Below are positions 3,001-43,235 of a DNA stretch of 64,000 bases, one piece after another. The DNA is taken from contig WIXG01000038.1 in assembly GCA_009869945.1 (NCBI GenBank), positions 248,001 to 312,000 of the forward strand, read 5' to 3'. The position numbers and the translations under genes were made by a program. Below the pieces are notes generated by a model. The model was not told the origin of the DNA. It saw only the letters and a list, made by a program, of their open reading frames with translations, and made no database searches. The stretch is from Mesaphorura yosii (lineage: Eukaryota; Arthropoda; Collembola; Poduromorpha; Tullbergiidae). Every line of letters begins with the position of its first letter. The stretch's first letter is position 1.

Positions 3001-6000
3001 ACGATGAGATATTCCTGTACGTGCTTTTTCTTGTCGGATCGAACATCCACAAAGAAACTTAAGAAACAAAACAATTATGCTGACACCACCAGTAATTAAA
3101 TTGTTTTCCTTGTATGCTGTTTAATTATCATTATAGTTAATGCCGTGTTGTGTGATGTAATGCATTATAATGACAATGTGCCGAGGAAATAATATTCAAC
3201 TTGTGAGGAATTCAAAATGAGTTACGAACAATTTGCGAGGTTGTAATCTGATAGTCCGTCATTCCTTATAGTTAAATTAACATTTTACCATACAACTAAA
3301 CAATAAGTGGAAAACAGACAGACAGAAAGACAACTAAGGAATGAGTAAATGCAAAAAACAAAAAAAAACTCATTTGAGAGCACTTGTCACCTGAATGAAT
3401 CGTGCTAGACGTCGATGAGTTCATTCCCGTGTCCTGTGTCCCGTGCGGCCGTATTCCACTCTAAATTCCGAATCTAGAGTACTTCAGATGACAAAAGTCA
3501 ACACCAGCCGAACATTGATCTTTTTGATAATTTCGTGTGCTATACAAATTTTAATTCAATTTATTCCGTGGACATTCCGATTTCCACAGTCTGTCTTCCA
3601 CGCTGCCGCGCTAAGCCTAGTCCGCCCGTGAAGTGAATATTATCTACCGCTTCGGTCCCAGGAGCAGAACGGATGCAAGTTATTTACAGAGTTTCAACGG
3701 TTCAGCCTCCTGCAAATTTTAGAGACGAATTTGGTATTTGTACTTCATGAAATATTTAAATGAAGCTGAGCGCACAAAAGACCAGTCCTGAAGTCTTGTT
3801 CCAGAGAAGAGTGCTCATCTCACAGGCTCGACGCTCTTGTCCTGGATTACTCATTCTGTTGGTTACCAGATATTGCTAATTTTGTTGGAATGAAGTGCCT
3901 GCAAGCGCGGCTTGGTTGAATGAAGTGGAATCATGAAACTTTACGGCAGCGGCAGTGTCATCCTGCATTATTAATCACATCCTTTGAGATATCCTGACTC
4001 TGCCATTATGCGAACAGTGAAGATTGCATTGGGGGTGAAATGATCTACAGGATTTTAATTCGCTGCGTGGCGGTGACTCTGAAGAGCTCTCGAGGAGACT
4101 TCATTGTTGCTCTACTTGGCCTCAAAGTCAGCTTGAAAATGGGCTCGTGCAATATTAATTAGGAAATCTAAGAAAAGAGCAACGCAAATTCTGGAAATGC
4201 GACATCATTACCCCTCGTATGAATTATAGACGAGGGCGCTGGCGCTGGCTAAGTGGTGATAAAAGTGTACAGGAATGAGATTCGGGGTTCAGCAGAAGAT
4301 CGGACAGCTTCTGAAGGCTCGACAAGCGCCAGCCCAGCCAGGTCGAGCCGTCTTGGCTCAGCAGTTTCACGCTCACGCATTCTGTGCACATACCAAATTG
4401 TAAATAACTTGAAGTATGTTGAACAATTCTTTTCTTTCAAGATCAAAGAGAATTTAAAATGTGGATTCTGTGCCGTACAGACTCAGACTTAGTTACGCTT
4501 ACGCTGTAATTTGTTCCGAGTTAAGAAAACATTGATTTCTTTGCTCAGAGAAAGTGGTGGCGGTGGTGGCAGCCCCTCCATGAAAGATTAAAAGAAAGTG
4601 GGGTGCGTGCACAAGAGGAAGGATCAACAAAAGGAAAGGTGAAAGCAAAGCAAAGCACTACGAAACTCGCCTGAATAATTCATGCTCTTCGCCATTCTGT
4701 TTTCCTTCGTGTGTCTGCCCATCTCACTTTCCCCGCTGCCGGTTTCTTTACATTGGACAGCTTGAATGCGGTCTCCTGTTTTGAAAAATATAAACAGCGG
4801 CGGCGTCTTCAATCCATTGACTTGGCGTGGCATGCATGTGAGCAACTTAAGACTCCATTATTTCCATTTCATCTATTAAAAACCCGAGGAGCACTTGTCC
4901 GCGTGTGCGAGCATTACGCACACATAAATATACAATTTCCACAGAACTTGAAGGAATGGCAACGGCAACGGAACGGATTCACTATTCTCGCAGCAACATG
5001 GAAATATTAGAAGCACTTTTGCTTTTACCAAGCAAACAAGCCTCTTGTTTTCTCTGTCTTTGCTGGCAGGAGAATTTTATCCCGCAAATTTGAAACTGCT
5101 CTCTTTCCGCTTTCTGAGAATGCATAAACATAAACTCAACTGGTACTGTCTCATATTCGCAACAGCTGAAGACAAAGAATTGATTTATGTAGACAGACAA
5201 GAACAGCCGAGCTCAAGACTTAAGGCCTGGAATGCCATGCTATGCAATGCAATTCGAAATAAATATGATTTGGGATGACACAAACAAGCGTGGATGAACT
5301 CTCGAGGATTCGGCAGTCGCGCGTTGTTTCATAGAGATTTCTGGTTCATTTGTTAATATTTGAATAAGCAAGAGTGACAACAGACACCCAAATCGTGCGT
5401 GTGCGTATGGGTACGGAAATAAAATGCGTTCGTGTTTTTATCATTCCCAAAGTTGATAAATGTAAAGTAGATTACATTATGCTCGTCTTCATGTTTTCTT
5501 CTCCGCTCCGTCGCGACATGCGAAAGAGACAGGCATCAATGCGGTGACGATAGGCATGTGTTGCCTTTCATGAATAATGATTGAAAATTGAGATATTCAC
5601 GGCCCAACAAACGCAGACTCCGAAGCTCCGACCGTCTCGGCACGCGACGCGGATGAGGCCAAGCCAAAGGCAGCCAGCCCGGATTTGACAGCGACGAAAG
5701 AAGAATGCGACGATGACAAAAATAATAATAAAACGATGGGAACGAACGGAGAAGAGCGAGATGGCAAGTCACGAGAAACAAAAATGTGGAGATTGTGAAA
5801 GGATACAATTTCGTCTAGTTTGCATCTTTTAAGATGATTGAACGTACGGCCTCGGTGCGACTTCGGATCGCGTCGTATGTCTCGTACTTTTTCACGCACT
5901 ACTTCAGCGACTGCAGCCATCCTGCTTCCGTGAAATTTCGTCCGTATGTAAATGTAATGTTTAGACCAGCTCAGTCCAAATGTAACGCATTAATGCATAG

Positions 6001-13499: not shown

Positions 13500-13505
13500 T
13501 TTATT
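13500..13505 (-). terminator. Poly(A) signal of the polymerase gene
   Basis: TTTATT on the plus strand (AATAAA on the minus strand) lies 83 nt past the polymerase stop codon. Confidence 0.6.
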
Positions 13506-13588: not shown

Positions 13589-15012
13589 TTAGTTGAGTTG
13601 GACAAATTCTGGCACAAAAAGCTTGAGCGAACCTTGAAACGGAAACTTGAATGTCATGGCCGACAGGTTGCGACGAATAGCCTCAAGCATCGAGCACCTT
13701 GTCTCATCCGCCCTCCAATTGACGTTGCCCAGGATGCCGTTGGCCATCATGATCGAGATCTTCTTTGGACGCCGGCAGTTGAACGTGCGTTCCTCTTCAA
13801 TCTTCTCCCACAGCTCACCTCCAAGACGCTTCTCGCCAAACCAAAAGAGAAGCGACCCTCTGTCGTTGACCCGGACATATTCTTTACCGGCACTCATTGT
13901 TGCCTTCATTTGCCGCTCCATCACCACGTCGTGACTGATGCCGTGCGCCCAGGCGATGAGACGATGGCAGTTCTCCGCTTTGAAGACGCGATTCAGTTCG
14001 CCCATGGGGACATGTTGAAGCTGGTGCATGCTGTAGATTCCCATCGAGCGGAGTTTCGCGCCGAAAGAGTTTAGACCCGCCCCACCCAAACCAGGGATGA
14101 ACCTCACCATAACCTTCTTAGAGACTCGTGAGATTCCGGCCAACGGGAGCATCGTTATGCCGTCGGGCTTGTTGAGAGAGCATCCAACCTTGGCAAGCAG
14201 CATGTTGTGTGAGATGCCGGCAGAGCACGTGAACTTAGTAGCTTCGCGAATGGCAGTGATAATCCGCGATACCAGCACGGCGCCATGGATAAGCCGAACT
14301 TCGTCTTCATAACGCCTCTTGTCCTTCGGATGAAGTTGCCCGATGCGGTACGAGATTTGCTCCTTTGACTGCTTCTGCCTTGTCGACTCCAGGTAAAATT
14401 TTTGCGGCGATGGCTGCGCACGGATCGCCTTCTGGATGTTAATTTTCCCCTGAAGAATTGCCTTGTTCACTTCCTTCGTAATGTCGAGGTAGAACTCGTC
14501 ATTGCTCGCATAGTCGAGGACCACGTCCATGTTGTTGTTGTGCAGGAAATTGAGAACGGCGTCCTTGATATCCCTGCTGCTCTCACGGAGCGCACGCTGA
14601 GCTGGTTTGCCGAATTCCATCTCCTTGTAGTGAACAACGAGGTCGGGGCATCGGGCGACGGCTTCACGAACGGTGTGAGTGTCCTTCTGAGAGATTCCAA
14701 ACTCGCGAGCTTCATACGAGACGGCGACGATCCTGCAAAGTAATAATGATAAAAATGATAAGAGATAAGCGAATGTATTAATTAACCATTGACCATCTTC
14801 ATGCTGTTTCTGTTGCTCCGATTTTTAATGCAAACGCCGTCTCAGTTTTGAACTTACTTATTCGGAGGATTCACAACAATCCCAGGAGAGCCAATGTATT
14901 CCGGATACTGACGACAGACGACTTGCCACTCGAAAGCGTCGACGTCGATGTGGGCCACCGTGCGCGACCCATTCACCGAATTTTCGTTGACCAATCCACC
15001 AAACATTTTCAT
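13589..15012 (-). CDS. Y-family DNA polymerase eta-like, catalytic core
   Basis: Y-family polymerases copy past damaged bases in the nucleus; the eta type inserts opposite UV dimers. Exons are 14858-15012 and 13589-14732, joined in phase by a GTAAGT...TTGCAG intron, giving 432 residues. Two start codons lie close together (15012 and 15006); I take the first. Eta-type signatures are the block after the splice (IVAVSYEAREFGI, residues 53-65) and SAGISHN (222-228), followed by helix-hairpin-helix and little-finger-like sequence. Metal ligands are kept: Asp23 in HIDVD, and Asp130-Glu131 in SNDEFYLD. By alignment from memory to human POLH, the steric gate (Phe18) is Glu28, Gln38 is Asn48, Arg61 is Gln67, and the Lys after SAGISHN (Lys231) is Met229. 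Tyr58 and Arg61 (human Tyr52, Arg55) remain. The protein stops after the core, so the UBZ finger and PCNA-binding tail of the human protein (about 713 aa) are absent. The family call is firm; activity is uncertain. Confidence 0.85.
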
Positions 15013-37713: not shown

Positions 37714-40700
37714 TTAAGCTTTGCTGTGCTGATTTTGGAATTTTCTGATAAGACTTAAGTGGGTGGATTTTTCTGCCTGAAGCTTATTTACTTGGTCCTG
37801 GAGCTGGACAATCATCATCTTCAGGTCAGGAATGCTTTGCAACTCGGACTCAAGAGTAGAATTCTTCTTTTGGGCGAGGTCAAGCTGCTTCAAAGCTTTT
37901 TCCAAGTCTTGTTGCAACACGTCGGTGTCATTCTTACTTCTCGTCGTCGAATGTGTGTGGTTTGCTTCTTGAAACATGGAATTTGTATCACCTGAAGTGA
38001 GCAAAGTCTGGTCACTTCGTTCTCCGACGTGGAACACACCGTGCTTGTCTCGGGCGACGGGCAGAGGATTCGAGATTGACACGAGTATAGGAACAGGGCC
38101 AGGCGATGTTATGTTGGCAGATGGGCGGTCCTCAATCATTTCCAAATTTATGCCTGCCAATTCCAACTGAAAATCAAACAAGCTCAATTAATCTCCAATC
38201 TGTAATATTATTTACCTTCAGCTCTGTTTTTTTTGCTTTAGCTTGCCTGTAATGGAAAAGGAGTGGGAATGATTTCATCTTCCACAAAATCGGCCAATCC
38301 CATCGCAGTCGTCATGTGCAGAACGAATTTCTCTTCATTTCGGAAATCGACATGGCAATCCAAAAATACCGCTGTGGAATTTGTGATTAACGATCTAATT
38401 GGTGAACTATCTCCGGGTCTGTCGCTCAAGTTAATTCGTGGATTTGAAGGAGCCCTAATTTTCTTGATTTCTTCAAGTGTGGTGTCGGAACTAAGATCCT
38501 TCTTGAATGCTTCTTCGTCGATTCTTTGGGAAAGCCGAATCTTTAAAGCTCGTTTCTGAGTAGGGCTACCAAGTGTCTGAGTTTCTTCAGGCCACGTTCG
38601 ACATCTTGCAGCAAACATTTTCTGAAATGAAAATTAAACCACATTTAAATCAAACTGATATTTTTCTGGATTAACAATTAAGGTAATTAAGCATTAAGAT
38701 CACTGCAGAGACAAAGCCATTTCGTTGCAACAAAAATACGAACAGATATTACATAGTAATTTCGAAATGAAATAAAAGTAGGCATGTTAGTGACCACAAC
38801 AAAGCTCTGACGCATTTAGAAAATCGCAAGCTACCTTATCCAAGTCACCTGTCTGCATGTAAAGAGAGTAAAAATGCGATGTTAAGGCAAAGGCACTCCT
38901 GACTTGAGTGTGATAGTCAAAGGGCAATTGCAATGCGTTGCGTGGTAAAGGAGGTGTGATTTTCGAAACAACAGTTATAAATCACATTTAAAAAATACGA
39001 AGTGAACTGTGATTTTTAGTGATACAAATTTAGGTGAAGTTAAATTAAATGTTATTAAAAAATTCAGTAGCTCACCTGGAACTCATTCCACGGAATGCTT
39101 GTGCATTCTTTAAGTCCGACAGATTTGCACTGGATCTTAATCACGGAGTCCAAACCACGACCTTCCTGAGCAATTTCAACTCCTTCCAGTCTTGCAGTTA
39201 ACAAACTAACCTGAAAAATTTGAAAAACTTATAGTTTCGGGAAAGGTAGCAAATAGAATTGTATCGATTAAAGTGTGATTCCTTACGACAGTCTCGTCAC
39301 TTTCATGTTTCAGTGATGCACCATCAGTTGGAACCATCGGTGACGGAGTTGATCTTTCAGTGAGGTCATTTTCCTCCACAACTTCTGTTGCAATTTCCAC
39401 ACCATCGTCATCCTCAAAGCCCTCCTCTCCGTTGTTACTAAACATTTGTGAGTTTCGAAGAGAGACCGATTCCGGGTCGACAACGTCAAGAGTGATAAAA
39501 TTGTTTTCAGACGACGAAGAGCTGAAATTTGACCAGTTTGATGCTATCTCGCTGTCCGGAGTGGAAATTCCTCCCTTGTTGAATGACACCGCCAAGTTGC
39601 TCACTCCATGACCATGCTTAATATTTTGTGTCAGATTGGAGCGGATAGTTTCTAGTGCGGGGTTGCTTCCATGCAAGTTTAGTGGACTATTGCTTAGCGA
39701 AACAGGAGCTGACACCAATGCGGGTGTGGACAAGGACACTGGCAACGCTGCAGTTTGTGGACCACCCTTCCCGAAGCTACGTCGGTGCAAGGATTTTTGA
39801 TCTCGCCTAATGAAAAATGACCGCTTATTTACGTGACCTGTCTCACTAAAAGGTTGGCCGAATTTAATAGAAAATACTTACTGGTCTAATTCAGCGTCTA
39901 TGCTGGAAGACTCGGGAATTGTGGAGTCCATTTCCAGCGATGGAGTCTCTGCTTTTTCTGGCAATGGTTGTGGGAAGAGCAATGAAACTTCAATTGACGG
40001 GGAACACCCGAGGAACGTGACGAGGTTGTCCAGGACTGATGTACCAATTATTTGCTCCATGTCAAGAGTAATGAACAAGGACAATTCGCCTAACGCCTCC
40101 GCCATTCGCATCACAAAGAGGTATTGATAATGGTTTAGTTGTACTTTACAAATTGCATTTGTACTAAAGAGAGCTTGGATGTTTTTCTGTTCGATTTTGC
40201 CTTTCCTAATTTTGCTTGGGTGCAGCCACACTGTCAGCGGAACAGAATCCACAAATGGATAGACTAGAGATTTGGTATTTGCTTCAGCGATTGGCTTTCT
40301 TGACAAGCTCCTTCTGTTTTGCGTTGGTTTCTCTTCCGATGGTGCCCGGGGTTTCTTCGTCTCAAGTCGAAAGTCAGCCCAGAAAGGATCCATAAAGACA
40401 TACCAAACGTCCCGAGGATCGGTCCACAGCAAGTCTTTAGTTAGCTCAGACGCAAGCTCTTGAAAACTGGTGCACTTAACTTTCTTGAGAGAATGCAATT
40501 TGTCTCGTCCTACACAAAAAATTTAATTACATCGCATAAATCATTTCAACATTTTCCAAAAATTCTGCTTTACCTTCTGCGTGCGCCAGGAATTTCTCCG
40601 ACACTAGGTTGACGTCATTTGCCGTGGAAGGGAAGTCGGCCCCATAAACAAGGTCACCTCGCTGCAGAACCTCTAGACATTGGGTCAACTGATGAAGCGT

Positions 40701-43235
40701 ACCCGTATCTGCGGATCTGTAGTTTGACAGAACCATTCTGGAAACTTGAAAATGTATGGACTGTGGACGCTCCTTCTGTCCCGCGTACACAGTCTTATTC
40801 TCGAAAATCACCTGATTAAAATAAAGAATCATACAATTCAGATTCAGGTACGTTTTACATTACGAAGCTTATAATAAAGTAAATTACCTTTGGCATAATC
40901 ACTTCAATTCTAATGTCGACGTAATCACTTTCTTGAGGAGAACTTTCAAGGGTCATTGAATGCTGGAGGTTGGAGATGAAGGCATTTAGCCATAAAATTG
41001 TGCAAGTGTCCAAGTGGACTTGAATCGGATGTATGTGAGAATAAATCTTTGGACTAGGCACTGAAAATACAGGTTTTGAGTGTTTAAGTAAATCAAAAAC
41101 ACATTGCAGTTAATTTTAATATGGCTCCTTACAGGGAAAGCAAACCTCCCCAGGATAATAAAACCATGCGAATTCTGTGTGGATGACTGGCAAATCTTTC
41201 GGTCTCTCAATAAAAGCTGTTTAGGACATTCTCATCGTTAGACACTCGAAGACCTAATTAATGCATGACTTACTTGAAATGAATGGTTGCGGAGACTCTC
41301 TTTTGGATGCCGTCGTCACTCGAAACAGACGAAGATCCTGAACTTTAAGTATCAGACAAGTCGTCATGAGCTTCGCAAACTGTTCAGTTATACTGTCCCT
41401 CAGCTGATTGTTTTCTGGTAGTCCAGGAGGAGACTGGACTTGGTTTTGCTTTCTGGTGAGAGGTGGATGCATAGATTCCAAAGATAAAGTGTCAATCAGG
41501 GAGATCCTAAAACTCTGCAGCGCCTGATGCAACCACTGAGCCAGTGTATTGTCAGCATACTTTGGCCAAGACTTTCGGCTTCCTCTTGCCAGGTGATACG
41601 GATAGAAATCAACCATGACTTGAGTCAGTGAAAGCTGGAGCGCGCCTCCTTCCTTCAAGTCTGGATGCTGAGACCGACCATCTAATTATAAATAATAAGG
41701 TGTATTATATATCTATAGCATACCGGAGAGAATCAGAAGTCTCGGGTTTCTCTAGAGAAAATAAAGCATATTTAAAAAAAACTTACTTCCAGGATCGTCA
41801 CAGAAGTGTAAGTCTATCTTTTCACAAATGAAATGATACGAAGTTTCTTTCACATCAAAAGCATCAAATTTCTTCAAGGCTATGTCAGTTCTTGCGTCTT
41901 TCTGCATCGCGCTAGCCTGAGAAAGTTGAGCTTGGTATTCTGGCAAGCTCTGTAAAAACATAAAAAATGTTTTCGTGAAGCTTTGAAATTAGTTTACTTA
42001 GCGAGCATGCTAGTGATGGCAGGAAGAAAGAAGCTTACCTCCAACTTGCGTTTCGCTTTGACTTTTTGAGTCATTTCAGTAGCTTGCTTTATGAGCCCAG
42101 ATAATGAGTTAATGAAATGTAACGCAGCCAGGATCTGCGAGTCAGTCAGTACCCATAAGAGATCATCAAGAATAAGTGAAAGCCGGCATCCAACAACTTG
42201 TGAATCTGAGATGAAGAAAAGTTGAAGAGAAATAGTTAAAGTAGCAAAAAAAAGAAAACCTAGGCCTCTTTGTAAAATCCAACATGCAGCATACCGGATA
42301 GTTTCTTTTTCATTACGATTCGGGCTTTCGCTTGATTTGTAAGCAGTCTCAGCGGAGCGAGATGAAGTTCCGTCGTCGACCTCGCTTCTAAACGCAATGT
42401 CTGCCACTCCATCTCCTTGAATATCAAAGTCTCGTCCTTTTGCATATCCTTCAGTCTCGTCCCGGAAAGCTCCACCTTTTGCCATTCTGGTGACTTTGAT
42501 TCGACGCGTATTCGAGAAATCTGCTCCGGGGAAAGGTAAAAGAGTTGAGAAAAGTTATTATCTTGTTACAGCAAACCCTTTGAAGAACTAGTGCGAAGTA
42601 AAAATTGAATTATAGGATCACCTGAACTTTCGACTCGAATGCCTGACTATGAAATGTGATCTCAACGGAATTGACTGTTGCTGTGATGCCATCGATTACT
42701 TTGTTAACAAAGCCATACTTTCCCAATGAAGTTGGAATTGTCGGGGCTTCAGTAGTTGGCGTTCCTTGCCTCAATTCCTCACACGCCTGAACGCGTATGT
42801 GAACTTCGTCCAAGCTCTGAAGCGAACAGATGCACAAATTAAACACAAACTGAAGGCTCGATATGCTCGGACGCTCAGTTTTTACTTACCAAATGAATTG
42901 GGACACTTTTCAGTTTTGTCCACTGTATTCGGACAAGCACTCTGTTGCAGTGAGCTTGTGTCAGTTTCATCCATGTTGGCAACGACAGTAATTCAGTCAG
43001 TACATCTTCTTCAAGCTCCAAATTATTCAGTTCGCCTTCTCCTTTCAGAGTACTCAGGCTTATTTTATCAGCCGAAAGATTCTTCACGAATCTGAAATAA
43101 ATTAGCCGGCTTAATTGATACCTGATACATTTCTGATTGTTTCTGATACCAATTTAATTGATTGCGTGAGGCGTAAGTGGATAGTACGAACCTGGACAAA
43201 TGCTTCAGAATTTGGTTTTTGATAATTCCGGCCAT
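37714..43235 (-). CDS. Bridge-like lipid transfer protein family member 3 (UHRF1BP1/SHIP164)
   Basis: BLTP3 proteins are rod-shaped lipid channels of the VPS13/chorein superfamily acting at endosomal membrane contacts. Exons, 5' to 3': 43192-43235, 42890-43091, 42622-42816, 42295-42520, 42039-42205, 41787-41949, 41274-41681, 41133-41216, 40888-41060, 40574-40811, 39882-40509, 39287-39806, 39076-39210, 38835-38852 (microexon), 38247-38621, 37714-38166. They chain in phase to about 1342 residues, against roughly 1440-1460 in the human proteins. The N-terminus (MAGIIKNQILKHLSR, then KNLSADKISLSTLKGEGELN) is the chorein-N start typical of the family. Other family blocks are VDFYPYHLARG, FIERPKDLPVIHTEF and DIRIEVIMPK. 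Residues near 780-960 are Ser/acid-rich and probably disordered. The C-terminus is a coiled coil (DVLQQDLEKALKQLDLAQ). One intron begins GC instead of GT. An acceptor near 43312 suggests a 5' UTR intron. Confidence 0.9.
38835..38852 (-). other. Candidate 18-nt microexon of BLTP3 gene
   Basis: A strong acceptor (TTTTTACTCTCTTTACATGCAG) and a GTAGC donor enclose 18 nt encoding Thr-Gly-Asp-Leu-Asp-Lys in phase 0 between two phase-0 exons. Inclusion or skipping both keep the frame. The open frame extends upstream, but no AG acceptor serves a longer exon in the right phase. Confidence 0.4.

Follow-up and report, generated by a model that had tools for sequence, protein, structure and literature searches.

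The Mesaphorura yosii window analysed here, a 64,000-nucleotide stretch of one contig, contains a gene, W, whose protein is most similar to DNA polymerase eta and carries glutamate at the position of the aromatic steric gate and leucine at the position of Tyr92, the tyrosine that stacks on that gate. Two further eta-like copies with open frames, A and B, are found elsewhere in the same genome and have likewise replaced both residues, alongside an ordinary POLH gene. From these comparisons, we tentatively read the W family as fast-evolving, eta-derived polymerases that may have a remodelled sugar pocket and discriminate less strictly between sugars.

Structure and coding evidence of the window gene

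W lies on the minus strand and consists of two exons (15012-14858 and 14732-13589) totalling 432 codons. Exon 1 (14858..15012) starts at Met1, ends two bases into codon 52, and contains both the first metal-binding Asp and the gate site; it is followed by a 125-nt, phase 2 GT-AG intron (14733..14857) and by exon 2 (13589..14732), which runs to the stop codon. An in-frame TAG is located seven codons before the ATG, and a short AATAAA motif on the same strand, 83 nt past the stop codon (13500..13505), is a candidate polyadenylation signal. Given the base composition of the window, an open run of 380 codons would be expected by chance at a rate of ~1e-10 per frame start, and the predicted product has matches among solved chains of polymerase eta at 5.3e-33, all homologues found being ~30% identical. 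The GC content at third codon positions of W is 66%, against 34% in its intron, with 43% and 44% in the two 2-kb flanks of the gene, a contrast that is compatible with a maintained coding sequence and stops short of proof. At third positions, POLH has 42%, B 49%, and A 47% GC.

A sequence-only reading of this DNA had argued from the intact frame against recent pseudogenisation. This is supported by the second open copy on another contig (B), which has Glu at the gate by a different codon, and by the residues that W has retained: 31 of the 38 positions invariant across six aromatic-gate rows of the alignment, as compared to 116/393 identical positions overall with human eta. At the domain level, W matches the Pfam family IMS (PF00817) with 78 bits for a cut-off of 23.2, and residues 14-377 align by phmmer to residues 11-373 of an eta chain. 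Searched with a permissive limit of E 1, Pfam gave no match to IMS_C in W or B, in which the little finger is therefore putative, and A stops before this region. A UBZ finger, present in POLH, was found by Pfam in none of the three copies. With no UBZ and a protein ending at residue 432, without room for the usual tail, recruitment of W would have to differ from that of POLH. In the same window, exons at 39206-42554 (minus strand) are similar to the bridge-like lipid transfer protein BLTP3A/B (PF24917), with E-values of 2.4e-8 and 1.1e-9.

Gate and pocket residues

All coordinates in this section are on the minus strand. Alignment with eta places the first metal ligand of W at Asp23 (14944..14946; human Asp13) and the remaining two at Asp130 and Glu131 (14495..14500; human Asp115 and Glu116), so that the full set proposed from the sequence alone is indeed kept. 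Glu28 (GAG, 14929..14931) aligns to human Phe18 with no gaps around the first metal site, which bears out its assignment to the steric gate position. An assembly error at these three nucleotides had been named as one finding that could overturn this assignment. Such a one-site error is very unlikely and was rejected, since any Phe or Tyr codon would need at least two base changes to become GAG and since B, on another contig, encodes the gate Glu with GAA. The aromatic partner of the gate is also missing, with Leu100 (14588..14590) aligned to human Tyr92. In human eta, Tyr92 is reported to stack on Phe18, and the Y92A change to relax ribonucleotide discrimination (PMC10639073).

Among the other pocket residues, one earlier assignment had to be changed. 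Met229 (14201..14203) had been taken as the substitute for human Lys231; several alignments instead place it at Lys220, and the counterpart of Lys231 is Lys240 (14168..14170), which is conserved. Tyr52, Arg55, and Lys231 of eta contact the triphosphate, and W keeps the counterparts of all three. The eta-specific lesion contacts, given as Gln38, Arg61, and Ser62 in excerpts of PMC11507097, are by contrast Asn, Gln, and Lys in W. Of these replacements, Asn48 for Gln38 was confirmed by alignment, while Gln67 for Arg61 holds in an ungapped alignment and not in a second one, which shifts the loop and places an Asp there. The same loop is ambiguous in B, where Arg and Ser are kept at Arg61 and Ser62 in one alignment and the loop shifts in another. 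Finally, W has Val32 in place of human Glu22 and an Asn next to the second metal site.

The gate and its partner across Y-family polymerases

Tyr92 is replaced in all three copies, by Leu in W, Val in B, and Gln in A, and is kept in POLH, REV1, human eta, and human iota. To place these replacements among more distant relatives, we surveyed 24 bacterial and viral sequences (in two sets of 14 and 10), 20 of which had a readable first metal motif, a small sample without eukaryotes. Those scan patterns that included the gate position allowed Glu, Ser, or Tyr there, and Glu was thus detectable. An aromatic gate was found in 20/20 readable relatives (9 Phe, 11 Tyr), and all 20 also had a counterpart of Tyr92. 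Glu22 was invariant in these 20 relatives as well as in POLH, human eta, and human iota, and has been replaced by Val in W, by Tyr in B, and by Leu in A; it is a weaker mark, however, because REV1 of the same genome has Ala at this position.

These patterns sit alongside published observations on DinB. Excerpts of PMC3096655 describe F12, F13, and Y79 of E. coli DinB as an aromatic triad required for in vivo bypass, and report Phe or Tyr at the gate in 97% of more than 100 DinB sequences. In our reading of the alignment, Y79 appears to be the counterpart of Tyr92. Overall, an aromatic gate with its tyrosine partner is nearly constant across the Y-family.

Y-family genes in the genome

When all 1127 contigs of the genome (93.0 Mb) were searched with the IMS profile, seven matches were obtained, which we read as REV1 (C590), a kappa-like gene (C46), POLH (C3), A and B (both on C674), and W, with B accounting for two of them. 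The REV1 gene was identified by eye through its BRCT-like N-terminus, and both it and the kappa-like gene have Phe at the gate. The sequence-only reading had suggested looking for a second, canonical POLH, and one is indeed present on C3: it reaches 388.9 bits against a solved chain of eta, has both IMS_C and the UBZ finger above cut-off (45.9 bits for UBZ), and carries an aromatic gate, Tyr27. The gate of this POLH is Tyr where human eta has Phe, and it has His where human eta has Ser62. The kappa-like gene (C46:174000-183900, minus strand, Phe gate) is at odds with the apparent absence of POLK from all arthropods reported in PMC6797769. Among other families scanned for, cuticle proteins (PF00379) gave 66 matches, an arthropod-like trait, whereas nematode collagen (PF01484) and insect odorant receptors (PF02949) gave none, zeros that do not in themselves demonstrate absence; a search for COX1 did not find it.

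A and B are arranged in tandem on C674 and have open frames like W. The gate residue is Ser19 (TCG) in A and Glu15 (GAA) in B, which is only 28% identical to W. Of the 38 reference-invariant residues, B keeps 35 and A 30, while REV1 keeps 28. Each of W, A, and B retains the full set of metal ligands together with the equivalents of Tyr52 and Lys231; Arg55 is conserved in W and B and is Lys in A. Copy A is 342 amino acids long and stops just after the thumb region, and may thus be incomplete or have a further exon missing from the model. Given its Ser gate, the Lys that replaces Arg55, and the missing C-terminal region, A is the copy of the three for which inactivity seems likeliest. On the same contig (C674:4000-13900, minus strand), a UMP synthase-like gene (OPRT and OMP decarboxylase) lies between A and B, and a replication factor C subunit-like gene precedes A, both named by eye.

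A relative of W that is broken by frame changes and an in-frame TGA is found on C344, at ~4600-5210 on the minus strand of the locus extracted from that contig. It was detected with an E of 3.6e-5 in the search with W, and the reverse search returned W at 5.2e-6. This relic is a decayed family member, and part of the W/A/B family is therefore dispensable. An acidic gate in the relic, considered from a hand alignment of its possible first exon, was discarded, as the alignment was at chance level (1414/2000 shuffles scored equal or better). With W, B, and the relic as queries, searches gave 8, 12, and 5 matches, respectively, and scoring of the best candidates yielded no further open copy beyond the genes described.

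Ancestry of the W, A, and B copies

In a ten-row tree that included POLH, human eta, human iota, REV1, and three DinB rows, W, A, and B formed a clade (support 97/98) that in turn grouped with the eta rows, POLH and the human protein (98/96), away from the three DinB rows and hence outside the DinB lineage. The placements of REV1, W, and human iota are less sure because of their long branches, the terminal branch of W alone reaching 2.14 changes per column. AU tests, with topologies picked after the tree was seen, rejected A and B with eta to the exclusion of W (p 0.016), as well as W with eta to the exclusion of A and B (p 0.0096). Pairing W with B (p 0.105) or with A (p 0.116) was retained, so that more than one branching order inside the family is compatible with the tests; the Glu of W and B may accordingly have been either inherited or gained twice.

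Pairwise scores agree with the tree: W scores ~117 bits to solved eta chains vs 39 to iota chains, B 123 vs 66, and A 78 vs 36, and among Y-family members W thus appears closest to eta. Gene structure also agrees with a common origin of W, A, and B, as the first of the six POLH introns (phase 2) is found at the same alignment column in all three. The POLH introns at codons 100, 238, and 312 are missing from W, A, and B, and B has one private intron at another position. This pattern suggests that a single intron-poor eta copy was probably the source of the family.

Comparison with known systems and alternative explanations

Polymerase eta (POLH, Rad30A) is the best match to W, which shares its metal ligands, Tyr52, and Lys231, along with the first intron of the POLH of the genome; W differs from it in the Glu gate, the lost Tyr92, the changes at Gln38 and Arg61, and the lack of a UBZ or a Pfam IMS_C match. 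An aromatic gate is typical of the Y-family, not defining for it, and its absence from W has a natural precedent. According to excerpts of PMC4176160, Mycobacterium smegmatis DinB2 has a Leu gate and uses rNTPs, DinB1 gains rNTP use through F23L, and further actinobacterial DinBs carry Leu, Ile, or Val gates. DinB2 resembles W, A, and B in having a naturally non-aromatic gate (Ser in A, Glu in the other two) with ordinary paralogs alongside, but it belongs to a bacterial DinB lineage, its gate is aliphatic, and its rNTP use has been measured, whereas for W such use is a prediction. Engineered enzymes provide a second comparison: human iota Y39A is reported to take rCTP as well as dCTP opposite G, well in manganese and poorly in magnesium (PMC3979402), and both this mutant and eta Y92A (PMC10639073), which lack the gate or its partner as W does, relax ribonucleotide exclusion. 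Unlike W, which differs naturally at both sites and has an acidic gate, these are single laboratory changes.

A Glu near the sugar is also reported for A-family polymerases, where it acts as the steric gate (PMC4176160, PMC10639073). Glu28 could by analogy be a working gate that occupies the space of the ring while excluding the 2'-OH, W being then a DNA polymerase with an altered lesion preference. That W and B both have Glu at merely 28% identity would fit this explanation, and the loss of Tyr92 could follow from there being no ring left to brace. We nonetheless consider it unlikely, if a serious alternative: copy A has Ser, and the A-family is unrelated, with a different pocket, so that the likeness is one of residue type alone. 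More improbable still is that W, A, and B represent a strongly diverged polymerase iota lineage instead of eta duplicates. The IMS matches included nothing else that we recognised as iota-like, the loop ahead of the YEAR motif resembles that of iota in being short (a by-eye reading of the alignment), and the AU test retained a clade of W, A, and B with human iota (p 0.056). All three copies, however, score higher to solved eta than to iota chains, and the free tree groups them with eta.

The three copies could instead be weak, decaying, or non-catalytic proteins whose pocket drifted after duplication, with the remainder binding DNA or protein or doing nothing. We regard this as a serious alternative yet somewhat doubtful, although several observations point in that direction, including the fast evolution seen in the end branch of W, the change of Lys220 to Met, the Lys for Arg55 and missing C-terminal region of A, the unmatched IMS_C and UBZ in all three, and the broken relative on C344. 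Against it stand three open frames that have retained every metal ligand at ~30% identity, and the third-position GC of W, which suits a maintained coding sequence without proving it.

Possible activity and significance

If the W family does consist of eta-derived polymerases with relaxed sugar selection, W and B would still be template-dependent, two-metal enzymes, as the retention of the metal ligands and most invariant residues argues for phosphoryl transfer in both. With ring and brace both absent, the usual stacking of the pocket on the deoxyribose would be lost, and W and B would be more permissive than POLH towards a 2'-OH or an otherwise altered sugar. They would possibly be slow or manganese-preferring, and would reach damaged DNA otherwise than by the usual C-terminal tail. 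That W may accept other nucleotides had been suggested from Glu28 and its surroundings, and the joint loss of Tyr92 strengthens this suggestion. Changes outside the pocket, namely that at Lys220, the loss of Glu22, and the Asn near the second metal site, could, on the other hand, mean a weak enzyme, and the precedents for a relaxed gate have small or aliphatic residues, whereas W and B have Glu. The literature searched yielded no Y-family enzyme that had been assayed with a Glu gate.

More speculatively, and with considerable doubt, repeated duplications of eta in an animal lineage may have led to acidic-gate, braceless polymerases that normally insert ribonucleotides or altered nucleotides, for instance as RNA patches in damaged DNA at low dNTPs. 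We know of no eukaryotic family in which both gate and partner are replaced, and no comparable eukaryotic case was found by titles and abstracts in the open-access literature searched. As a natural eukaryotic family with both residues replaced and an intact POLH alongside, W, A, and B would allow a test of whether sugar exclusion can be dropped or rebuilt in acidic form, and of what an enzyme without the usual sugar gate is for.
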